From the IMG/VR virus record IMGVR_UViG_3300021961_000605, positions 1 to 24,592 of that record: DNA of 24,592 bases; one strand, written 5' to 3'. The position numbers and the translations under genes were made by a program. The stretch's first letter is position 1. Every line of letters begins with the position of its first letter. The notes beneath the pieces are model-generated. The model had not been told where the DNA came from, searched no databases, and worked only from the letters and a program-made list of their open reading frames with translations. Below, piece by piece: positions 634-22,971 of the stretch. Source of the stretch: a virus.

Positions 634-1040
634 GTCGTTTAGTTTATGTAAACGGATTAGGTCCCAATTACAAGGGAGATAATATCTATGAGTTTATATT
701 TTCTGACGATAATTTGAAAGATGTGTGGGGTGAGAATTGGGAATCAAAACCGGCTCACGGTAAACCATTACCACCCGACTTAGAACATATAGCGAAAGTT
801 GGAGTTTTGAAAAATACTAAAGTCGAATTCGAATTAGTACAAAACTCCGACTTTTTTTCAGTTTTAGACGCTACCGATGATATCATAGCGTTAGCCTGGG
901 AAATTGATGAATACAACGAAAAAGAAAGTAGAGTTGTGTTTAGATTTGGGGATGATGAAAAAGTTGTAAAAGAAAAATTGTACGAAAGAGACCTAATACT
1001 CGAGTTTGAAAAAGAAAAAAAGGTGGTTTATGAAAATTAA
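630..1040 (+). CDS. Hypothetical protein, 136 aa
   Basis: I do not recognise this family. The protein is acidic and probably mixed alpha/beta. The N terminus MSRLVYVNGLGPNYKG is followed by aromatic-rich strands (YEFIFSD, DVWGENW), a Pro-rich turn (GKPLPPDL), and a charged C-terminal helix (LILEFEKEKKVVYEN). There is no signal peptide, membrane segment or Cys cluster. The start is fixed by the ATGA overlap with the upstream gene, and the end overlaps the next gene by 11 nt, so it sits in a tightly packed operon with both neighbours. Compact size and location next to the head module fit a small virion or neck component, but nothing in the sequence proves that. Confidence 0.75.
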   Translation: MSRLVYVNGLGPNYKGDNIYEFIFSDDNLKDVWGENWESKPAHGKPLPPDLEHIAKVGVLKNTKVEFELVQNSDFFSVLDATDDIIALAWEIDEYNEKESRVVFRFGDDEKVVKEKLYERDLILEFEKEKKVVYEN

Positions 1041-1920
1041 TACAAAAGCGTTGGCATTGATTGAGTTTGGTCTAAAATCCAAGACGGTTTCCAATTTGTC
1101 TGAGAGTGAAATAAATACTCTCTACAAAAAACTAATTGTGTTGGAACAAACTAAAATAGGTGATTCTTTAGAGACAATAAACACTCAAATAAATCAAACA
1201 ACTGGTGCAATTCAAGACTTAAAAGGTGAACTTGAAAATTTGTCAAAAGAAATGAGCGAAGACGATGTCGCGGCCGACATTGATTTTGACTTGACAGGTA
1301 TTTCGCAAGATAAACACCAATCAATGGGTGATGACGGTATGGATGATGATTCTAACCCTAAAAGTACGGCTCATAGTGAAGAAGGTCAGACTGAAAGTGA
1401 AATAAAAGAAAAATTTGCATCTAAAGCTCAAGCAAGATATTTTTACGCAATGGCTGACAAACCTGGTAAGAAAGGTGAGAAGTTCAAAAAATACGCCAAA
1501 GAATTTACCAAAGATACTGAAAAGAAAGGAGGTTTTAAGAAACTACCTGAGAAAGTTAATGAAGAAAGTATTAGGTTTATCCAAGAAAATATACTATCTT
1601 TGTTGGACAAACACCTACCAAAGAAGATGAGTAAGAAAGATATTTTGGAAAACGACACCAAAACAGCTCCTGATAGAACTAAGACAAAGCCTACCACAAA
1701 GCCAGGTAAGTCTAATCCCTTCAAACCACAACCAGGTCAACAACCTAAACCAAAGGCGGGTGATACTAAAACTGCACCCGATAGAACTAAGACAAAACCT
1801 ACTACAAAGCCTGGTAAGTCTAATCCCTTCAAACCACAACCAGGTCAACAACCTAAGCCAAAGGCAAAACTACCTGAATTCCTTAAGTTTAAAAATATTT
1901 TCAAAAATGGAGAGAAATAA
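1030..1920 (+). CDS. Hypothetical protein with KAQ motif and tandem Pro/Lys-rich repeats
   Basis: I prefer the ATG at 1030 to the in-frame ATG at 1006. It gives an 11-nt overlap with the previous gene and has AGGTGG just upstream. The 296-residue product has four parts. The N-terminal helix contains LSESEINTLYKKL. Next comes a coiled-coil/acidic segment (residues 30-120) with many Asp/Gly. A basic block around residues 127-160 carries SKAQARYFYAMADKPGKK, a type of Lys/Ala/Gln motif found in small phage proteins. The C-terminal tail holds two copies of a 36-residue Pro/Lys/Thr repeat. No enzyme motif is visible. The Pro-rich tail looks disordered and could be a linker or an interaction arm on a virion protein. 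The N-terminal LSESE motif resembles LTESE at the N terminus of the protein at 14256-14726. Function is unknown. Confidence 0.7.
   Translation: MKINTKALALIEFGLKSKTVSNLSESEINTLYKKLIVLEQTKIGDSLETINTQINQTTGAIQDLKGELENLSKEMSEDDVAADIDFDLTGISQDKHQSMGDDGMDDDSNPKSTAHSEEGQTESEIKEKFASKAQARYFYAMADKPGKKGEKFKKYAKEFTKDTEKKGGFKKLPEKVNEESIRFIQENILSLLDKHLPKKMSKKDILENDTKTAPDRTKTKPTTKPGKSNPFKPQPGQQPKPKAGDTKTAPDRTKTKPTTKPGKSNPFKPQPGQQPKPKAKLPEFLKFKNIFKNGEK
1654..1869 (+). repeat. Two tandem 108-bp in-frame repeats
   Basis: Copy 1 (1654-1761) and copy 2 (1762-1869) are directly adjacent and nearly identical at DNA level. They differ mainly at third codon positions, apart from the final codon. Each encodes 36 residues beginning DTKTAPDRTK and ending PGQQPKPKA. 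The in-frame period and the synonymous pattern show a duplication that has been kept as protein. Confidence 0.92.
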
Positions 1921-3270: not shown

Positions 3271-5031
3271 ATGTCAATTACAAAAGAACAAGTACTGTTA
3301 GAATATGCGAAGTGTATGAAAAACACTCCGTACGCAATGCGTTCGTATTTGCAAACGTACGACAATACACAATCCAAATATGTTCCATTAGACTTATTTG
3401 AAGACCAAAATACCTTGGTGATGGATTATGATACTTACAATGAAAATATTGCATTGAAGTATCGTCAGGCGGGTGTATCAACTGTAACCGCAGCATGGGC
3501 GTCAAAAAAGATTGCATTTGCCAATAAGAATAAACCTGAGAAGGTTCTTATCATTGCAAACAAATTAGATACCGCAGTTGAATTTGCAAATAAAATCCGT
3601 GGGTTTTTAGGTCAATGGCCATCATGGGTTGGTATCGACTTTACACCTGAAAAAAACGCAGCAAGACACTTCAAAATGAGTAATGGGTGTGAGGTAAAAG
3701 CGGTTGCAACATCAAAAGATGCACTTCGTGGTTATACCCCAACCACACTTATATTTGACGAGGCTGCTTATATTGATGCCGATGAAGATTTCTGGGCTGC
3801 CTGTATGGCGTCACTATCTACTGGTGGTAAAGTTATAGTTATCTCAACACCAAACGGTTACGATAGAATTTATTACGAAATCTACGACCAAGCTCTAAGA
3901 GGTATGAACACTTTCAAGGTGACCGAGATGTATTGGTACAGAGACCCCCGTTATACTAAAGATTTATTTTTGATAAAAACGGATGATATGATTCACTATC
4001 TATTGAACAAAGAGGAATATACTGAGGACGATATTATTGACCTATCAGATAAGAGTCCAAGAGATAGAGATTTCAAACTAATTAGGAAACTCATGGATGG
4101 GGGATACAAACCGTGTTCTTCATGGTTTGAGGCGATGGTAAAAAAGTTGAAGTACGACAAACGAAAAGTTTCTCAGGAATTGGAGTGTAATTTCTTGGGT
4201 TCGGGTGATAACGTATTTGACTCAAACCTACTTCACTCTATCAAAGAGAATATGTTGTGTGAACCACAAGCCAAGATGATTGGAAACTCTTTATGGATTT
4301 GGAAAGAGCCTGAAATTGGTCACAAATACATTATGGGTGTAGACGTTTCTCGTGGTGACTCTGAAGACTTTTCATCATTTGAAATTGTTGACTTTGATAC
4401 AAGAGAACAAGTTGCCGAGTATGTTGGAAAAATACCACCAGATACTTTGGCTGAAATTGCATATAAATGGGCGAATATGTATTCGTGTTTTGTTGTTATT
4501 GATATCACGGGTGGAATGGGTGTGAATACCTCAAGAAAGATGCAAGAACTTGGATATAAAAATTTATATATAGATGGGGTGGACCACGGTAATATGTGGA
4601 AGTATGACCCTAAAGCTCAAGACAAAATTCCCGGATTGAACTTTAATAATAAACGAGTTCAAATTATTGCCGAATTAGAAGAACAACTAAGACACGGATT
4701 CAAGATTTATAGTAACCGTTTAATGAACGAAATGAATACGTTCATTTATTTGAATGGAAGACCTGACCACCAAAAAGGACATCACGACGATTTGATTATG
4801 TCTTTAGCAATGGCAATATATGTTGGTCAGAATTCATTCTCTAAGTTAGAGAGGGTAACTGAACAAACAAAAGTATTGTTGGACTCTTGGCAAGTGAATA
4901 CAAACAATACTAATAAATCTATCTCACAATACCTAAATCCAGTACTTCCGTTGAATCCTGCGGATTCTATGAGACAAAATCAAATATCAAAGGAAGAATA
5001 TATGAAACATTCATGGTTATTTGGAAAATGA
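3271..5031 (+). CDS. Terminase large subunit (T4 gp17-like)
   Basis: ATP-driven DNA packaging motor and headful nuclease. In the ATPase domain, KYRQAGVST (residues 63-71) is a deviant Walker A in which the Lys stands at the start and the GKT lysine is Val. LIFDE (160-164) is Walker B with the catalytic Glu, and ISTPNG (191-196) is the coupling motif. In the RNase H-like nuclease domain, GVDVSRGDSED gives Asp358, VVIDITGGMG gives Asp411, and GHHDDLIMSLAMA gives Asp506/507, the three expected acidic positions. The length of 586 aa is close to T4 gp17 (610 aa). The start follows immediately after a terminator T tract, with no Shine-Dalgarno sequence. The next start, Met16, would remove a plausible N-terminal helix, so I keep 3271. 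The portal gene lies 38 nt downstream, as expected for a packaging pair. Confidence 0.96.
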   Translation: MSITKEQVLLEYAKCMKNTPYAMRSYLQTYDNTQSKYVPLDLFEDQNTLVMDYDTYNENIALKYRQAGVSTVTAAWASKKIAFANKNKPEKVLIIANKLDTAVEFANKIRGFLGQWPSWVGIDFTPEKNAARHFKMSNGCEVKAVATSKDALRGYTPTTLIFDEAAYIDADEDFWAACMASLSTGGKVIVISTPNGYDRIYYEIYDQALRGMNTFKVTEMYWYRDPRYTKDLFLIKTDDMIHYLLNKEEYTEDDIIDLSDKSPRDRDFKLIRKLMDGGYKPCSSWFEAMVKKLKYDKRKVSQELECNFLGSGDNVFDSNLLHSIKENMLCEPQAKMIGNSLWIWKEPEIGHKYIMGVDVSRGDSEDFSSFEIVDFDTREQVAEYVGKIPPDTLAEIAYKWANMYSCFVVIDITGGMGVNTSRKMQELGYKNLYIDGVDHGNMWKYDPKAQDKIPGLNFNNKRVQIIAELEEQLRHGFKIYSNRLMNEMNTFIYLNGRPDHQKGHHDDLIMSLAMAIYVGQNSFSKLERVTEQTKVLLDSWQVNTNNTNKSISQYLNPVLPLNPADSMRQNQISKEEYMKHSWLFGK

Positions 5032-5069: not shown

Positions 5070-6929
5070 ATGTCGGAAAAACAAACAGTTTGGCAACGAT
5101 TATCACAAACCTTTGGTCCTAATTCATTATTAGGACAGGATTATCCTACGTATAAGTTTGATAAGCAAGAACTACTACGCACACAGGATAAAGCTGCCTA
5201 CGAAAAAGAAAAATTACAAGCACAACAGACGTATTATTTGGCGTCTAATTGGGCTAAAATTGAAAACAACTTATATACCCAAGCTGTTTATTATGAACCA
5301 ACAAGACTTGCTAGTTTCTATGATTATGAATCAATGGAGTATACTCCTGAGATATCTGCAGCGTTGGACATATATGCCGAAGAATCTACAACACCAGACC
5401 AAAATGGTTTCATGTTACAGATTTATTCTGAATCAAAAAGAATAAAAAGTATTTTAGCGGACTTATTCAACAATAAGTTGGATGTAAATACTAATTTACC
5501 GATGTGGACACGTAACACGTGTAAATTTGGTGATAACTTTGTTTATTTGAAGTTGGACCCTGAGAAGGGTGTTGTTGGTTGTTTCCAATTACCAAACATT
5601 TCAATTGAACGTGTTGAAGGTGGTATGTTGGGTGACAGACAACTCAACGCCACAACGTCAGATATTACCGAATCTAAACCAATGAAATTTAAGTGGAAAG
5701 ATAAAAACATGGAGTTTAATTCATGGGAAATAGCTCACTTTAGATTATTGGGTGATGATAGAAAGTTACCATACGGTACTTCTATGTTAGAAAAAGCCAG
5801 ACGTATTTGGAAACAATTATTATTATCAGAAGACGCGATGTTGATTTATCGTACATCGCGTGCACCTGAAAGAAGAGTATTCAAAGTCTTTGTTGGTAAC
5901 ATGGACGACCAAGATGTTGAACCATATGTACAAAGAGTTGCCAATAAGTTCAAAAGAGACCAAGTTGTTGATAACGCAACAGGAAACGTAGATTTGAGAT
6001 TCAACCAAATGGCTGTTGACCAAGATTATTTTATTCCTGTTCGTGACCCAGCAGCACCAAGTCCAATTGAAACATTACCAGGTGCAACAAACTTATCTGA
6101 GATTGCCGATATTGAGTATATTCAAAAGAAGTTATTGACTGCACTTAGAGTACCAAAAACTTTCTTAGGTTTTGAAGAAGTTGTTGGTGATGGTAAAAAT
6201 CTTTCATTACAGGATATAAGATTTGCAAGAACTATCAACAGAATTCAAAAGTCGATGATTCAAGAACTTAACAAAATTGCTATAATACATTTGTTTTTGT
6301 TAGGTTTTGAAGATGAGTTATCAAACTTTACTTTAGGTCTTTCAAACCCATCAACGCAGGCCGACTTGTTAAAAATTGACATTTGGAAAGAAAAAATCCA
6401 ATTGTATAGAGATGCAGTTTCTGACCCTGGTAACGGAATTCAACCTGTATCATCTACATGGGCTAAGAAACATATTCTTGGTTTCTCTGATGAAGAAATT
6501 AGATTGGATTTACAACAACAAAGGATTGAAAAGGCAGTTTCAGCTGAATTACAAACAACAGCTGAGGTTATTAGAAAAACAGGTGTGTTTGACAATATTG
6601 ACAAATTATATGGTGGTGGAGCATCAGGTACGACAACTCCTGATTCATCAACAATGGATGTTGGTGGTGACTTTGGTGGTGGTGGATTACCTGAACCATC
6701 AATAGAACCTGAAGCACCGTTGGGTGGTGAAGAAGCACCGCCAGCACCTGAAATAGGTGGTGCTCCTGAAATACCCGCACCTGAGGTACAACCTGAATCT
6801 CAAAAACTTGACTTGAATATATTAATTGAGAATGATTTAATCAAAGGTAAAAATTATTTAGATTTATCAAAAGGAAGTCAATCTTTGGGTGATATGGAAA
6901 AAGAATTGAGAAATATACTAAGGTCATAA
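5070..6929 (+). CDS. Portal vertex protein (T4 gp20-like)
   Basis: Forms the dodecameric ring at the head vertex through which DNA enters and leaves, and docks terminase and neck. The family is recognised from the central and C-terminal core: PEISAALDIYAEEST (about residues 93-107), a wing/stem region with APERRVFKVFVGNMD, and KTFLGFEEVVGDGKNLSLQDIRFARTI around residues 365-392, which is typical of T4-like portals. At 619 aa it exceeds T4 gp20 (524 aa). The extra length is mostly a Gly/Pro/Glu-rich, probably disordered segment (about residues 515-578), followed by a short conserved-looking helix ending GDMEKELRNILRS. The gene lies 38 nt after the terminase and just before a helical protein and the protease, as in T4. 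No Shine-Dalgarno sequence precedes the ATG. Confidence 0.95.
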   Translation: MSEKQTVWQRLSQTFGPNSLLGQDYPTYKFDKQELLRTQDKAAYEKEKLQAQQTYYLASNWAKIENNLYTQAVYYEPTRLASFYDYESMEYTPEISAALDIYAEESTTPDQNGFMLQIYSESKRIKSILADLFNNKLDVNTNLPMWTRNTCKFGDNFVYLKLDPEKGVVGCFQLPNISIERVEGGMLGDRQLNATTSDITESKPMKFKWKDKNMEFNSWEIAHFRLLGDDRKLPYGTSMLEKARRIWKQLLLSEDAMLIYRTSRAPERRVFKVFVGNMDDQDVEPYVQRVANKFKRDQVVDNATGNVDLRFNQMAVDQDYFIPVRDPAAPSPIETLPGATNLSEIADIEYIQKKLLTALRVPKTFLGFEEVVGDGKNLSLQDIRFARTINRIQKSMIQELNKIAIIHLFLLGFEDELSNFTLGLSNPSTQADLLKIDIWKEKIQLYRDAVSDPGNGIQPVSSTWAKKHILGFSDEEIRLDLQQQRIEKAVSAELQTTAEVIRKTGVFDNIDKLYGGGASGTTTPDSSTMDVGGDFGGGGLPEPSIEPEAPLGGEEAPPAPEIGGAPEIPAPEVQPESQKLDLNILIENDLIKGKNYLDLSKGSQSLGDMEKELRNILRS

Positions 6930-6949: not shown

Positions 6950-7645
6950 ATGACTTTAGGTAACATTATATCAAGAATCAATAAGAAATTAGTTGAGTCG
7001 TACACACAAGATTCAATTAAAAAAGAAATAAAAACATTCTCTAAATTAGTGTTGGAGAATAAAAGTTTTTCTAAAATTTATTCAATTTATTCTGATTTAT
7101 CTCAAAATTTGGGATTATCTAAAGAAGACTCTATTGAGTATGTCAATGAAGGTGTAAGGATTATTAATTCACATAAAAATAACAATTTTACTGAAATTGA
7201 TAAGTGGATTAAAAATGTTGTTTGTGAGAATGATTATTCTGATATTGATAACTTAGTATACAGTGCCGACTTAAAAAAAGTGGTTGATTCTAAAAAGAAA
7301 TTATCTGAATCACTTCAAAAACAGAAAACAATTTTTGAAGGTGTTAGATTACCATTATCTACAATGGTACAGGTTGCAAACAAACAAATTGAATCATTCG
7401 TTGAAACTTTATCTGAAAGTGAAAGAAAAGAATTCGTTGAATTATTGTCTAAGGATGAAACAAGTTTGAATGAGGATTTCAATGGTCTTAAAGAAAAAAC
7501 TATCGAGAAACTACAAGAGATGAAAAACACTGTTGAGGATTCTGAAGTTAAAAACAAAATTCAAGAAACTATCAATAAAGTAGAAAAAGAGGTTAGTGGT
7601 AGAATTGAGTTTGTAAAAATGAAACAATTATTGGAATCTTTATAA
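6950..7645 (+). CDS. Helical protein between portal and protease, possible prohead core component
   Basis: I find no family motif. The 231-residue protein is almost wholly helical and Lys/Glu/Ser-rich. An N-terminal helix (MTLGNIISRINKKLVES) is followed by further amphipathic helices and a long C-terminal coiled-coil-like segment (about residues 160-231). In T4 the slot between genes 20 and 21 is held by small prohead core proteins (67 and 68), so a core role is a reasonable positional guess. No membrane segment or Cys cluster is present. The stop lies in the palindrome TTATAA, which also supplies the stop of the convergent bS21 gene, giving a 6-nt tail-to-tail overlap. A TATTTATA element lies 12 nt before the start. 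Confidence 0.8.
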   Translation: MTLGNIISRINKKLVESYTQDSIKKEIKTFSKLVLENKSFSKIYSIYSDLSQNLGLSKEDSIEYVNEGVRIINSHKNNNFTEIDKWIKNVVCENDYSDIDNLVYSADLKKVVDSKKKLSESLQKQKTIFEGVRLPLSTMVQVANKQIESFVETLSESERKEFVELLSKDETSLNEDFNGLKEKTIEKLQEMKNTVEDSEVKNKIQETINKVEKEVSGRIEFVKMKQLLESL

Positions 7646-7834
7646 TTGTTCCTTATCTTTTACTGATTGAATATATTGAGCTTTCTTTATTTGCTCACGT
7701 CTTGTAACAGACTTCTTTTTGAATTCTTTACGTTCGATTAAAATGTTGTTCTGTTTGGTCTTTATAACTTTACCCTTTAATTCTTTTAGGGCTCTTTCAA
7801 TTCCTTGAGGACCATGAACTTTTACTATCAACAT
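7640..7834 (-). CDS. rpsU: Phage-encoded ribosomal protein bS21
   Basis: Small-subunit ribosomal protein located near the mRNA exit side and the 3' end of 16S rRNA. The 64-residue sequence matches the family along its length: MLIVKVHGPQGIERALKELK, then a basic middle, then the C-terminal RREQIKKAQYIQ, which closely resembles the RAEIQKAQYIQ type of Bacteroidota bS21. I start at ATG 7834. An upstream in-frame TTG at 7843 would add three residues that fit the family worse. No Shine-Dalgarno sequence precedes the start. It is the only minus-strand gene in the head module, transcribed towards the 6950 gene and divergent from the gene at 7966. Viral bS21 genes are known in other phages and may replace host bS21 on ribosomes to favour phage mRNAs; that role is inference here. 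Confidence 0.9.
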   Translation of the reverse strand: MLIVKVHGPQGIERALKELKGKVIKTKQNNILIERKEFKKKSVTRREQIKKAQYIQSVKDKEQL

Positions 7835-7849
7835 ATAATACAAATATCT

Positions 7850-7857
7850 AATAAATA
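7850..7857 (-). promoter_or_regulatory. Putative late promoter element TATTTATT before rpsU
   Basis: On the minus strand TATTTATT lies 15 nt before the bS21 ATG. It matches the motif seen before several structural genes, with one change in the last base. Confidence 0.3.
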
Positions 7858-7897: not shown

Positions 7898-7928
7898 TTG
7901 ACAAAAGTAATTTTATTTAGTATATTTT
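7898..7928 (+). promoter_or_regulatory. Host-type (Bacteroidota) promoter candidate
   Basis: TTG at 7898-7900 (in TTTTTTTTGAC), a 20-nt spacer, and TATATTTT at 7921-7928 match the Bacteroidota primary sigma consensus TTG-N17-23-TAnnTTTG except for the last base. It lies 37 nt before the start codon at 7966, which is a suitable distance for a short leader. Confidence 0.5.
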
Positions 7929-7965: not shown

Positions 7966-8415
7966 ATGAAGAAAGGTAAAACTACCAAATTAAATCTATA
8001 TAAAGAAATAAAAACAAATTTTGGTACTGTAGATTCTAAAAACTTAAAATCAATTTTTATAAACATTCAGTCATGGGCTGAACCAACAGACGAATTTGAT
8101 AATTGGAATCGAATCGTAAATAATCTAAGTAGAAAAGTAAAACATTCGGTACATAATAGAGCAAACAGAAATGTCTTTGACGACAAATTTATTGTGGATT
8201 TAGACCTCAGAACAAGTGGTATTATGTATGGAAAAAAATCATTTATGAATTTAGAAGTTAATTTATATCTAAAAAAAGAATTAGATTTCAAATCAACCAC
8301 TCTAAAAAACGAAGTAAAAAATATTATCAGTTCAATTTATAAAGATTCTTTTTTAAACAACGAATATTTTAATTTCACCGCTTCTAAAAAAGATTCTGTA
8401 TCAATATCGGTGTAA
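7966..8415 (+). CDS. Hypothetical protein, 149 aa
   Basis: I do not recognise the family. The protein is basic (many Lys) and looks alpha/beta: a helical N-terminal half (LKSIFINIQSW, NRIVNNLSRKVKHSVHNRANR) is followed by strands (FIVDLDLRTSGIMYG, FMNLEVNLYLKKEL), a Lys-rich helix and a Ser-rich C terminus (KKDSVSISV). There are no Cys residues and no membrane segment. It has its own upstream region with a host-type promoter candidate and sits divergent from bS21, so it may be expressed at a different time from the surrounding head genes. The two TATTTATT elements after its stop belong to the next gene. In position it may correspond to a small core protein, but separate expression argues against a simple structural role. 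Confidence 0.75.
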   Translation: MKKGKTTKLNLYKEIKTNFGTVDSKNLKSIFINIQSWAEPTDEFDNWNRIVNNLSRKVKHSVHNRANRNVFDDKFIVDLDLRTSGIMYGKKSFMNLEVNLYLKKELDFKSTTLKNEVKNIISSIYKDSFLNNEYFNFTASKKDSVSISV

Positions 8416-8452: not shown

Positions 8453-9169
8453 ATGAAAGATTTACGCATATTGAATCCATCAGAGGTTGGTAAGGGCATT
8501 TTGATTGAAATGGATGCGGGGTTTGTATCTCCACAACATGAGCTCAATCAGAAGATGCTCCAAGAACAAAAAACTCAATTGGACCACTCAAAGCCATTTG
8601 TGTTCTATGCTGTATTACAAAAACATGGTGTACCAAATAGAAATGGTAGAGTGTATCCTGAAAGGATTCTAAAGAGAGAAGCCGAAAAATACAAACAAAT
8701 TATTAATAAAGGTTTATCAACTTCGGAACTTAATCACCCTGAATCATCATTGATTGATTTGGATAGAGTATCTCACATCATTGATGATGTATGGTGGGAT
8801 AACAATATCCTTATGGGTAAACTAAGATTACTAACCTCACCAGGTTTTCATGAAAGAGGTATTGTTTCAACAAAAGGTGACATTGCAGCTAACCTAATGA
8901 GACAAGGTGTAACTATGGGTGTATCTTCACGTGGTGTAGGTTCTTTGAAAAAAGTTGGTGAACAAAACGAAGTACAAGATGATTTTGAATTAATTTGTTT
9001 TGATTTAGTGTCTTCACCATCAACACCAGGTGCATACCTTTTCTCAAATGTTGATGACCGTTCTAATTATGAAGAGAACTTAGATGAAGAAAAAATGATG
9101 AAAAATCAGGGAACAATTGACAAGTCTATTGACTTGATGAAAAAATTAACTGATTATTTAGGACACTAA
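8453..9169 (+). CDS. Prohead core protease (T4 gp21-like)
   Basis: Serine protease that cleaves capsid and core proteins during prohead maturation and then digests itself. The family is recognised by three blocks: GVPNRNGRVYPERIL (residues 59-73), SELNHPESS with the probable catalytic His95, and MGVSSRGVGS with the probable nucleophile Ser158 or Ser159. These are followed by LICFDLVSSPSTPGAYLF with Asp184. The length of 238 aa is near that of T4 gp21 (212 aa). The tail after the core (LDEEKMMKNQGTIDKSIDLMKKLTD) is charged and helical, as expected for a self-cleaved extension. It stands between the portal region and scaffold/major capsid genes, the T4 order. A likely substrate site is visible in the major capsid protein (INE followed by A at residue 60). 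Confidence 0.93.
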   Translation: MKDLRILNPSEVGKGILIEMDAGFVSPQHELNQKMLQEQKTQLDHSKPFVFYAVLQKHGVPNRNGRVYPERILKREAEKYKQIINKGLSTSELNHPESSLIDLDRVSHIIDDVWWDNNILMGKLRLLTSPGFHERGIVSTKGDIAANLMRQGVTMGVSSRGVGSLKKVGEQNEVQDDFELICFDLVSSPSTPGAYLFSNVDDRSNYEENLDEEKMMKNQGTIDKSIDLMKKLTDYLGH

Positions 9170-11071: not shown

Positions 11072-12886
11072 ATGGGAGCATTATTAGAAAGCGGTCTTGT
11101 TGGTAACATCGGTCTTAAGCACTTGAAAGTTATTAAAGAAGACACAATCAACAAATGGGATAAATTAGGTTTCTTAGAGGGACTTAGAGGTCACATGAAA
11201 GAGAACGTTGCACAGTTGTATGAAAACCAAGCATCGCACCTCATCAACGAAGCGTCAGCTTCAAATGACTCTGGTTCTTTCGAAACAGTTGTATTCCCAA
11301 TCGTGAGAAGAGTATTCTCTAAATTATTGGCAAACGATATCGTTTCTGTACAAGCTATGAACTTACCAATCGGTAAATTGTTCTACTTTGTACCTCAAAT
11401 TCAAGGTTATTCAGGTGGAACTGCAACTTATTCAGGTGTACACTATGCACCAGTAGGTTCTCCTGGTAACTACCCTGGTTCACCAAACGCAGGTTACACT
11501 TCAGGTACACCATTCAACAAGAACTTGTATGACTTGTTCTATGAAGGTTCAACTCCTGATTTGGAACCAGCAGGTTTGTTCGACTATTCAAAAGGTCAGT
11601 GGACAGCTGTAACTGTTGCGGCAACTTCAGTGGCTTGGGATAATGGTAACTTAGTTGCTTCAGCATACACTTCAGATACATACAGAAAAGTATTGATTGC
11701 TATCTCTGGTTTCTCAAGTGCAGGTCAAGGTAAATTGATTGGTCCTGATGGAAACATTCAAGATACAGAATCATTCTTGGCTGGTTTGAAAATTGTTGGT
11801 AACGCACAAAACAACACTACTTCAGGTAACACAGCTAACCCTTATTTATACAGAGTTGTAACTCAGAAATATGGTAAGGGTATCGTTCAATACGGTTCAC
11901 AAGCATCTTACACTCCATTCGCAGGTGCAAATACAAACTACTATGATGATATTTGTACTGCTGATGGTGTAATGTACTTGGAAGTTGATTTACAAGTTCC
12001 ATGTGCTGTTGGAGCGGATTCACTTGATGGTTATTCAGGTAGCACATTCGCATCAACTGCTGGCGACAGTGCATCAGCTAACGCTGAAGTAACATTCAAC
12101 GTATTGTATAGAATTTACGATACATTAGAATTTGAAGACCAAATTGGTGAAGTTTCTTTCGACCTTCAGTCAGTAACTGTATCTGTTACAGAAAGAAAAC
12201 TTAGAGCACAATGGTCTCCTGAGTTAGCTCAAGACGTTGCAGCGTTCCATAACATTGACGCTGAAGCTGAATTGACAGCATTGTTGTCAGAGCAAATCGC
12301 AGCGGAGATTGACCGTGAAATCCTAAGAGACTTGAGACAAGGCGCAGCTTGGTCTTTGAGATGGGATTACAACGGATGGAAGAGATTAGGTTCAAATGCA
12401 GTACCTTACACACAAAAGGACTGGAACCAAACTCTTATCACTGCAATCAACCAAATTTCAGCACAAATCCACAAATCAACATTGAGAGGTGGAGCTAACT
12501 GGATTGTTGTATCTTCTGAAATCAGTGCAATTTTTGACGACTTGGAGTACTTCCACGTTTCAAACGCAGCACCAGACCAAGACCAATACAACATGGGTAT
12601 TGAAAGAGTTGGTACTTTGAGCGGTAGATATCAAGTGTATAGAGACCCTTACTTCCCACCAAACACTGTATTGATGGGTCACAAAGGTACGTCTTTACTT
12701 GACACTGGTTACATTTACGCACCATATGTACCTCTTCAGTTGACTCCAACTATGTATAACCCATTCAACTTCACCCCAATCAAGGGTATCATGACAAGAT
12801 ACGCTAAGAAGATGGTGAACAACCGTTTCTACGGTAAAATCACAGTTGATGGTGTTAGAACATTCGACTTGAACGAGTTGAGATAA
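11072..12886 (+). CDS. Major capsid protein (T4 gp23-like)
   Basis: Shell-forming HK97-fold protein. The family is recognised by the N-terminal propeptide, by TVVFPIVRRVFSKLLANDIVSVQAMN (residues about 71-96) with the following P-x-G-K-L-FYF segment, and by the C-terminal PFNFTPIKGIMTRYAKKMVNNRFYGKI block typical of gp23. A probable protease site LINE followed by ASAS falls after Glu60, close to the Glu65 site of T4 gp23. The length of 604 aa exceeds T4 gp23 (521 aa), with Gly/Ser/Tyr-rich extra sequence around residues 110-330, probably surface insertions. The codons look well chosen and more GC-rich than the neighbours, as in highly expressed genes. A strong terminator follows. There is no Shine-Dalgarno sequence; the ATG is preceded by A-rich sequence. 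Confidence 0.96.
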   Translation: MGALLESGLVGNIGLKHLKVIKEDTINKWDKLGFLEGLRGHMKENVAQLYENQASHLINEASASNDSGSFETVVFPIVRRVFSKLLANDIVSVQAMNLPIGKLFYFVPQIQGYSGGTATYSGVHYAPVGSPGNYPGSPNAGYTSGTPFNKNLYDLFYEGSTPDLEPAGLFDYSKGQWTAVTVAATSVAWDNGNLVASAYTSDTYRKVLIAISGFSSAGQGKLIGPDGNIQDTESFLAGLKIVGNAQNNTTSGNTANPYLYRVVTQKYGKGIVQYGSQASYTPFAGANTNYYDDICTADGVMYLEVDLQVPCAVGADSLDGYSGSTFASTAGDSASANAEVTFNVLYRIYDTLEFEDQIGEVSFDLQSVTVSVTERKLRAQWSPELAQDVAAFHNIDAEAELTALLSEQIAAEIDREILRDLRQGAAWSLRWDYNGWKRLGSNAVPYTQKDWNQTLITAINQISAQIHKSTLRGGANWIVVSSEISAIFDDLEYFHVSNAAPDQDQYNMGIERVGTLSGRYQVYRDPYFPPNTVLMGHKGTSLLDTGYIYAPYVPLQLTPTMYNPFNFTPIKGIMTRYAKKMVNNRFYGKITVDGVRTFDLNELR

Positions 12887-20366: not shown

Positions 20367-21104
20367 TTACTCTTTGAAACCTTCTTGGATGATAAAATAC
20401 AATTTTTTATATCTTCTCATACTAGTTCTAATTTCTTTTGTACTTAGGTTAGTCATCTCCCTCAATGTTAGGAGAACTATGTTTTTATTAAACTTATTAT
20501 TATCCGCACCAATGAATACCTTATTATAATTTTCAAATAAATCTATTAATGCATATCCTAATTTAGTTTCATTATCATTCATATTCTCAGTATCTAAGAA
20601 CAACTTTAATTCATCAAGGTATTTCCGTATCACCAATTCACTATCAAATTTTTCTTCATCAATAAAATAAATCATATCAGGTCTTTCTTCTAAGCTAGTT
20701 GAAATATCTTCATATGATATTTTACGATTGATATCTTTTTGGTCCTTAATGATTTGACCCATCAAATAGTTTTTACATATTGTACCAAAATATGAATAAG
20801 CTTTCTTATTTTTATCAGGCCTAAACTTATCTATTTTAGTCATTAAGAAAGAATGTGTATCAGTATGAATTTCAAAAAAATCCATATCTTTTCTATACAA
20901 CTTATACCTACGTATGATAGACGAAATCATCTTATCAAGTGGATGACGTAGGTATTCGTTATATATTTTATTCTTTTCTTCAAATGTGTCCGCAACTAAG
21001 TAACGTCTAACCGCAGCTTCTTCCCTTTCAGCGAAATAATTTTCGTTGACGGTTTTCCTACCTCGTTTACGTTCAACAGTTGAACCTGACACTTCCAAGG
21101 ACAT
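20367..21104 (-). CDS. RNA polymerase sigma factor (T4 gp55-like late sigma)
   Basis: Directs the host RNA polymerase to phage promoters. Region 2 is recognised at about residues 45-128: LDKMISSIIRRYKLYRKDMD, then IDKFRPDKNKKAYSYFGTICKNYLMGQII, which matches the core-binding and -10-melting pattern (FxP-K-x-AYxYF) of gp55-like factors. The C-terminal part (about 208-245, VLLTLREMTNLSTKEIRTSM) looks like a short helix-turn-helix resembling region 4. I start at ATG 21104. The TTG at 21107 would add one residue, and the ATG shares a base with the upstream stop (TGATG). The basic N terminus (VERKRGRK) may aid DNA contact. The length of 245 aa exceeds T4 gp55 (185 aa). It lies in the operon between glycosyltransferase and baseplate genes. 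Confidence 0.85.
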   Translation of the reverse strand: MSLEVSGSTVERKRGRKTVNENYFAEREEAAVRRYLVADTFEEKNKIYNEYLRHPLDKMISSIIRRYKLYRKDMDFFEIHTDTHSFLMTKIDKFRPDKNKKAYSYFGTICKNYLMGQIIKDQKDINRKISYEDISTSLEERPDMIYFIDEEKFDSELVIRKYLDELKLFLDTENMNDNETKLGYALIDLFENYNKVFIGADNNKFNKNIVLLTLREMTNLSTKEIRTSMRRYKKLYFIIQEGFKE

Positions 21105-21913
21105 CAAATCTCATTTTCTTGGAAGTTTATGTTTCTTTGTTCAGTGAAGAAGTATTCTTTTTTTGCGGACTCAACCCAAAACTTTACTTCATTTTCAGAT
21201 AAAATTGAGTCACCAAATTTATGATTCCAGAAAATAGAACCTTCCCTCATATTCAAGTGTTTATAACCAATTTTAGGTATTGTCATTATTTGAACTGAGT
21301 TATAAGTCATTCTTAATAAGAATTCATAAACAAATGTTAATTTGAAATTACTCTTAAACATTCCAAAATCAGTGAATGACTCTTTTAGCATAACCATACC
21401 TGAAGTTTGGAAGTTTTGATAATCGTGTAGTGTTTCATTGGTTAGGAATCCCATTTCTTGACTAAAGTTAGCTGCGAAAGTGGCTTCATTAGTAAATCCT
21501 GCAAAAGTATTTTTATCATCAACATCAACAACGATTGGTAAAAACGCCTGAATTTCAGGATATGCATCCATATAGATTTTCACATTTTTGAACCAAATTG
21601 AAGCGTATTCGTCATCAATTTCATAAAAAGAAACCCATTTACCTGAAGAGCTTTCAACACCTAAATTAATTTGTGATGAATAATTTGGTTCACCTTCAAA
21701 TAACACCAATTTAGTATTTATTGAACCAAAATCATAGTTATTTAGTATTGAGATTAAGTTTTCTTCTTTTGTGTGAACAATAACCAATTCTTTTGGTAAA
21801 ATAGATTGGTTATTAAGTGCTTTGATACATTTATCAAAATATTCTGTAAAATCTTTTACCGTAGAGTTTTTGATTGGTAAAATTACTGATAAGTCTAAAA
21901 ATTCTTGTGTCAT
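21104..21913 (-). CDS. Family 2-type glycosyltransferase (GT-A fold)
   Basis: Transfers a sugar from a nucleotide sugar. The GT-A start LSVILPIKN (residues 8-16) is followed by KELVIVHTKEE (41-51), SQINLGVESSSGKWVSFYEIDDEY (80-103) and the catalytic-loop acidic trio Asp100-Asp101-Glu102, in the place of the DxD metal site. Further on, FQTSGMVMLKESF and HLNMREGS fit the acceptor-side half. The length of 269 aa is normal for phage GT2 proteins. It is followed by the sigma factor gene with a 1-nt overlap and preceded by another glycosyltransferase after a 2-nt gap, so the pair probably acts on one target. The target (capsid, tail fibre, phage DNA or host surface) is not visible from the sequence. 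Confidence 0.85.
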   Translation of the reverse strand: MTQEFLDLSVILPIKNSTVKDFTEYFDKCIKALNNQSILPKELVIVHTKEENLISILNNYDFGSINTKLVLFEGEPNYSSQINLGVESSSGKWVSFYEIDDEYASIWFKNVKIYMDAYPEIQAFLPIVVDVDDKNTFAGFTNEATFAANFSQEMGFLTNETLHDYQNFQTSGMVMLKESFTDFGMFKSNFKLTFVYEFLLRMTYNSVQIMTIPKIGYKHLNMREGSIFWNHKFGDSILSENEVKFWVESAKKEYFFTEQRNINFQENEI

Positions 21914-21915
21914 AA

Positions 21916-22971
21916 TTATAGTGTGTCAATTGATTCTAATTGTTGTTTAAGGTGAGAAACTCTCGAACCGATAATATTTGTAAATGTTGATGTAACCATA
22001 AACTCAAACTTACTTTTGTCTTGATATTTGGTTGTTGTCGCCATGTTACTATATAATTCATCTGAAATGTTATCCTCTAACCAATTTTGTAAAAATTCTG
22101 CAATCAAATCAACGATTACATTCTTATTGTGTACCCAAATACCATTTTCTTCATTCAACCAAACTGGTTTTAGGTTTGGTGTCATACCCAGTACTGGTAC
22201 TCCTGTTATCATAGATTCTAATGGGAACGTACCAAAACTTGAATGTTCGTCAACCCAAACAGAGGCACAACATTCTTTGAGCGCATTTGCAAATTGTAGT
22301 TCACTTAGACCTCTCATATCTCTAAATGTTACCCATCTAAATTGAGGGTATTTTAGATAAAACTTTTTGATAATATTAACAGTATCTCTCTGTTCTCTAC
22401 TATGGACGGCAATTACTGGTTTTGGTGGTTTTTCTGCCTTTGAAAAACAATCAGATATAATTGGTTCAATTACATCCCAAGTTTGATTTTTCATTATAGA
22501 TGAAATCTCATTTTTAGATTCTTCTGATGTTGTGATTGCTCTAATAAAACCTAATGAATTCCATGATTGACCTGCTTGTAAGGTATCAACAATTTGGTCA
22601 TAAGCTTGTGCAATAACAATTTTACCACATGGTAGGTTTTTTATTTGTTCCATAATAAAACCGTAAATTTCAGGGATTAAAATAAAATCTTCAGGAGAAA
22701 TCTCTAAGTTTCTATTTTCAATACTCTGATGTGGTATCTCAGACATATATTCGGGACCTAACCATTCAGAAACTCCTGTGTAATCATTCTTTTCTGTTAG
22801 CATTATTGAATTAAATCCGTTTCTTTTTAATGTCAAAGCCATTTGATAAATGTATCTGACAGATGCCTTAGCATTACCTTTAGTATCTTGAACTAAAAAA
22901 TATAACCTTGAGTTTTTATTTTCTAAATTCTCAATACTTGTTTTTATTTTTGAAAGTTGTTCTTGTTCCAT
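21916..22971 (-). CDS. Glycosyltransferase, GT-B fold, group 1-like
   Basis: In the C-terminal half, WVDEHSSFGTFPLESMITGVPVLGM (about residues 240-264) is the nucleotide-sugar-binding motif of GT4-type enzymes: Ser-Phe-Gly then Pro-Leu-Glu-(x)-Met with a final Gly-x-Pro-Val-Leu. The preceding KPPKPVIAVHSREQRDTVNI (about 183-202) is the linker strand that opens the second Rossmann domain. The N-terminal domain begins with a charged helix and RLYFLVQDTKGNAKASVRYIYQMALTLKR, resembling acceptor-binding domains. The length of 351 aa is complete for the family. The GT2-type gene follows 2 nt later. The two belong together, but the sugar acceptor is unknown. Confidence 0.85.
   Translation of the reverse strand: MEQEQLSKIKTSIENLENKNSRLYFLVQDTKGNAKASVRYIYQMALTLKRNGFNSIMLTEKNDYTGVSEWLGPEYMSEIPHQSIENRNLEISPEDFILIPEIYGFIMEQIKNLPCGKIVIAQAYDQIVDTLQAGQSWNSLGFIRAITTSEESKNEISSIMKNQTWDVIEPIISDCFSKAEKPPKPVIAVHSREQRDTVNIIKKFYLKYPQFRWVTFRDMRGLSELQFANALKECCASVWVDEHSSFGTFPLESMITGVPVLGMTPNLKPVWLNEENGIWVHNKNVIVDLIAEFLQNWLEDNISDELYSNMATTTKYQDKSKFEFMVTSTFTNIIGSRVSHLKQQLESIDTL

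Follow-up and report, generated by a model that had tools for sequence, protein, structure and literature searches.

A phage bS21 gene of Bacteroidia type that lacks the feedback signal of host rpsU

A 24,592-base IMG/VR virus record, referred to here as the window, comes from a large virus of Bacteroidota and encodes a genuine ribosomal protein bS21 of the Bacteroidia type. Its gene, rpsU, lacks the Shine-Dalgarno (SD) feedback signal carried by most of the host rpsU genes we compared, a lack that it shares with nearly all phage genes. The idea that a phage bS21 might take over ribosomes is not new, as Chen et al. 2022 had already put it forward (PMC9723584). What we add is the missing feedback signal, a promoter-like box abutting the ATG, a clade of relatives without bS21 that is nested among phages with it, and a neighbouring gene that persists when bS21 is absent.

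A bS21 gene among T4-like head genes

Ribosomal_S21 (PF01165) is the sole Pfam match (E 3.7e-5) of the 64-residue translation, MLIVKVHGPQGIERALKELKGKVIKTKQNNILIERKEFKKKSVTRREQIKKAQYIQSVKDKEQL, which at 23.8 bits lies slightly below the curated cut-off of 27; PHROG and NCBIfam gave no match. In a phmmer search the best PDB match is bS21 of the Flavobacterium johnsoniae 70S ribosome (7jil_z, E 2.6e-8, residues 1-61), which is 44% identical, has the same length and likewise carries Tyr54, but differs by a phage-specific block at positions 19-28. The initial annotation had called the protein a bS21 of Bacteroidota type, and both parts of that call hold up: the only Pfam family it falls into is the expected one, and the nearest PDB structure comes from F. 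johnsoniae.

Relatives of the protein are encoded on at least 583 IMG/VR stretches, as counted in one scan. When host and viral bS21 are aligned and placed in a tree, as the annotation had proposed, 61 distinct phage proteins lie on one side of a branch that separates them from the hosts, with a support of 87 from 64 columns only. L19, V23, I24, K27 and Q28 are present in all 61, and position 21 is S, G or A, whereas host bS21 mostly has Y19, R21 and F23. Position 54 is Tyr in 50 of the phage proteins, the window's among them, and His in the other 11. Comparison of window rpsU with that of a related locus (L002) gives a pN of 0.052 against a pS of 0.84 (saturated), which points to maintenance under purifying selection; viral ribosomal protein genes are described as being under such selection by Mizuno et al. 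2019 (PMC6375957). We consider that bS21 was probably acquired once, by the ancestor of these T4-like Bacteroidota phages. A donor genus could not be named: although the phage proteins group together (support 87), the alignment has only 64 columns and the branches are long.

Within the window, rpsU lies on the strand opposite to the surrounding T4-like head genes, and the 149-aa gene next to it is divergent (Table 1). A 231-aa family flanks bS21 on one side at all 71 loci with a usable call, and the 149-aa family lies on the other side at all 66 loci where an opposite-strand neighbour was called. Note that these counts draw on the window and 80 retained loci, leaving out eight at which a simple ORF caller made no bS21 call.

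Table 1. Features of the window discussed in the text.
Feature	Position	Strand	Basis
Terminase large subunit	3271..5031	+	profile matches
Portal protein, T4 gp20-like	5070..6929	+	profile matches
231-aa gene, convergent to rpsU, 6-bp overlap	6950..7645	+	ORF list; +1 neighbour in 71/71
bS21 (rpsU) gene, 64 aa, Tyr54 kept	7640..7834	-	translation, Pfam, PDB match
GATATTTG box, candidate rpsU promoter element, ~6 nt before ATG	7841..7848	-	conserved position; predicted
TATTTAT at -23, alternative candidate element, leader ~10 nt	7851..7857	-	window sequence; motif class
Promoter-like TTGACA-17-TATATT of the 149-aa gene, divergent from rpsU	7898..7926	+	sequence; same arrangement in bS21-less relatives
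149-aa gene, place of Chen et al.'s bS21_CN	7966..8415	+	-1 neighbour in 66/66 named
Prohead protease, Peptidase_S77	8453..9169	+	profile matches
Major capsid protein, Gp23	11072..12886	+	profile matches
245-aa protein, possibly a divergent phage sigma factor	20367..21104	-	fold matches, Sigma70_r2 in relatives

This organization resembles, by description, that of the myophages of Chen et al. In their paper (PMC9723584), lake phages with Bacteroidetes hosts carry a reverse-strand bS21 in this same cluster of terminase, portal, protease and capsid genes, placed between portal and prohead protease and beside an opposite-strand hypothetical gene. Their bS21 is of Bacteroidetes type, keeps Tyr54, diverges at N-terminal positions and is transcribed late. 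Pelagibacter phage HTVC008M also carries a bS21, and its protein enters E. coli ribosomes (PMC6375957); it differs, however, in being found with an E. coli bS21 query rather than with the window protein, and in having other gene neighbours. Elsewhere in the window, two glycosyltransferase-like genes at 21104-22971 (-) adjoin the tail gene region (Glycos_transf_2 at E 5.5e-8, Glycos_transf_1 under its cut-off), and an ORF at 1030-1920 (+) contains a long tandemly repeated stretch, DTKTAPDRTKTKPTTKPGKSNPFKPQPGQQPKPKA.

The start region of rpsU

In F. johnsoniae, rpsU carries an extended SD that serves as its autoregulation signal, and the gene is translated better by ribosomes that lack bS21 or the Tyr54 contact (PMC9976891). 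Window rpsU lacks the extended SD that many Flavobacteriales carry. Its upstream region pairs with the 16S tail at a duplex energy of only -0.4, and 28 of the 29 genes called in the window are above -8, so that the annotation was right to see no SD before this ATG or before phage genes generally. Among 80 host rpsU loci, 86% are at -8 or below (these loci, mostly Flavobacteriales, were retrieved with bS21 of both phages and hosts as seeds, so that the value does not stand for the phylum), and 82% of 61 distinct host upstreams share at least six letters with the full SD, versus none of 56 distinct phage rpsU upstreams at -8 or below and 0.8% of other phage genes. Escape from host control of rpsU, which the annotation had raised, fits this comparative evidence.

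Phage rpsU elsewhere can carry an SD, as seen in pelagiphage Mosig (L188), where an extended SD lies upstream (-17.6), and in a 735-kb phage (-12.1). SD-less rpsU also occurs among the host loci (L083, L087-L091, L094 and L102; copies L178 and L179): Psychroflexus and Mesohalobacter genomes have one SD-less copy each, of a distinct type, and two Mesonia genomes have one copy with an SD and one SD-less copy of the distinct type.

Phage rpsU does have a promoter-like box close to the start codon. Of 57 distinct upstreams of phage rpsU, 52 carry ATATTT at -12 to -15, compared with 7.9% in shuffles, although the count comes from related sequences and their independence is therefore overstated. We read this box as a variant of TATTTAT, a candidate late promoter that occurs upstream of 92 of 218 other phage genes where about 9 would be expected (window plus loci L002-L081), its start nearly always 19-37 nt ahead of the ATG. 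In F. johnsoniae, 4-5 nt separate the -7 element from the transcript start (PMC6847099). Applying this spacing to the position of the box, we predict a leader of 0-3 nt in 53 of 57 phage rpsU genes, where the median for hosts is 32 nt, and hence a near-leaderless rpsU transcript. The rpsU of F. johnsoniae combines an extended SD with a predicted leader of ~32 nt, and phage rpsU has neither. At -3 and -6, U replaces the favourable A more often in phage rpsU than in other phage genes, as if the promoter rather than the leader constrained these bases. At two loci, L009 and L050, the box is missing near the ATG and the motif lies at about -24; window rpsU has TATTTAT at -23 besides its abutting box.

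That rpsU has a promoter of its own, as the annotation supposed, is backed as far as sequence goes by the divergent upstream neighbour and the conserved box abutting the ATG. Two other candidate motifs were rejected. TGTCAAA, which precedes many phage rpsU genes and was considered as their -35 element, turned out to be the TTGACA promoter of the neighbouring gene read on the other strand, and is kept in bS21-less relatives; GATATTT, considered as a window-wide motif, is not enriched, the phage-wide motif being TATTTAT. The passages of Chen et al. 2022 drawn on here do not discuss the start region of rpsU.

A candidate for a divergent phage sigma factor is the 245-aa protein. Its top fold matches are mostly to sigma factors (none at E <0.001, with a model pLDDT of 66.7), Sigma70_r2 is weakly matched in 5 of 18 relatives, and the protein is ~69-76% identical in relatives.

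Relatives without bS21

A search with the 149-aa family returned 80 loci, of which 52 have an adjacent bS21, 24 do not, and four are too short to tell. At the bS21-less loci gene order is otherwise unchanged and the head cluster intact; the gap measures ~66 or 132-136 nt, the longer version includes an inverted repeat with T after it. Two records, of 309,177 and 261,052 bases and perhaps incomplete, gave no bS21 match in a search that did match six bS21 records.

In a tree built from the 149-aa and protease sequences, the bS21-less rows require two state changes, and holding them together, as a group named before the tree was built, is rejected (p-AU 0.0015). One bS21-less group sits among bS21 phages with a branch support of 97/89, which we read as a loss of bS21; for the other, either gain or loss would fit. 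Since one bS21-less clade is nested within bS21 phages, bS21 appears to be dispensable. The same loci argue against the 149-aa gene as an obligate partner of bS21, an idea we rejected because 24 loci have the gene without bS21. Chen et al. report the neighbour gene as absent from their two bS21-less outgroups, whereas here it stays. The 149-aa protein is highly conserved; its model has no fold match with E <0.001, and it has no convincing PHROG.

What the phage bS21 may do

Why should a phage keep such a gene? The explanation we favour, and to which we give an even chance, is a feedback-free bS21 supply, by which ribosomes would stay bS21-replete late in infection and able to initiate on SD-less mRNA. 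Imagine that rpsU is transcribed from its own promoter near the start codon, and late, by analogy with the relatives described by Chen et al. (PMC9723584). Its mRNA, without an SD and probably with a very short leader, would escape the host feedback in which bS21-lacking ribosomes translate rpsU well. Phage bS21 would then enter host 30S subunits and keep the 16S tail sequestered through its Tyr54, and bS21-replete ribosomes would initiate well on messages without an SD, the kind that phage genes produce. We infer the transcript start, the incorporation into ribosomes and the benefit of phage bS21. The swap into ribosomes, already suggested by the annotation, is plausible by analogy, because the bS21 of another phage, a pelagiphage, enters E. 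coli ribosomes, where in vitro activity is strongly reduced (Mizuno et al. 2019; PMC6375957).

We favour supply because Tyr54 is retained, phage messages are SD-less, and in vitro SD-less mRNA enters initiation complexes better with wild-type F. johnsoniae ribosomes than with ribosomes that carry Y54A or a C-terminal deletion of bS21 (PMC9976891). Several observations argue against it. SD-lessness is the default of phage genes, so that a missing SD need not be feedback escape; the residues fixed in phages at positions 19-28 are not explained by simple supply; and there are relatives that appear to live without a bS21 gene. The near-leaderless version in particular would have to accommodate L009, L050 and the second motif of the window. 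We hold only tentatively the more specific proposal that a near-leaderless, feedback-free rpsU evolved, is read by a divergent phage sigma factor, bypasses host autoregulation and holds ribosomes SD-blind late.

The block at positions 19-28 keeps alive a different reading, in which phage bS21 takes the place of its host counterpart and, by way of a surface specific to phages, biases ribosomes towards phage mRNA, much as Chen et al. hypothesise (PMC9723584). What speaks for it are the five residues fixed in all 61 phage proteins, together with the usual host residues at positions 19, 21 and 23 being different. If initiation were shifted toward phage mRNAs, ribosomes would need something by which to recognise them, and we found no mRNA feature that tells phage from host messages. 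Most Bacteroidota messages are SD-less, as are those of the phage, and the Tyr54 that stacks on the 16S tail (A1534) is kept, both of which argue against retuning based on the SD. We therefore regard this reading as unlikely, and the annotation's shift in initiation as unsupported. Alternatively, the phage copy could be a resistant replacement that counters a host defence or the loss of host bS21, which a protease of phage or host origin might, for instance, degrade. The same fixed differences from the host protein speak for this, and a protease aimed at host bS21 figures in the speculation of McNutt et al. We judge this reading improbable. Most improbable is a structural role, with bS21 packed or active in head assembly. 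Its strictly conserved place among head genes would suit such a role, and Chen et al. mention packaging as a possibility (PMC9723584), yet rpsU lies on the opposite strand, the ribosomal residues including Tyr54 are kept, and relatives without bS21 retain an intact head cluster.

Feedback-free supply, our preferred explanation, sets an SD-controlled host rpsU against an SD-free phage rpsU, a difference that is directly testable in F. johnsoniae, for which mutants and reporters of rpsU are available. Relatives lacking bS21 provide a natural control, and bS21_CN is removed as an obligate partner of bS21. Of the ribosomal proteins that phages encode, bS21 has been described as the most common.
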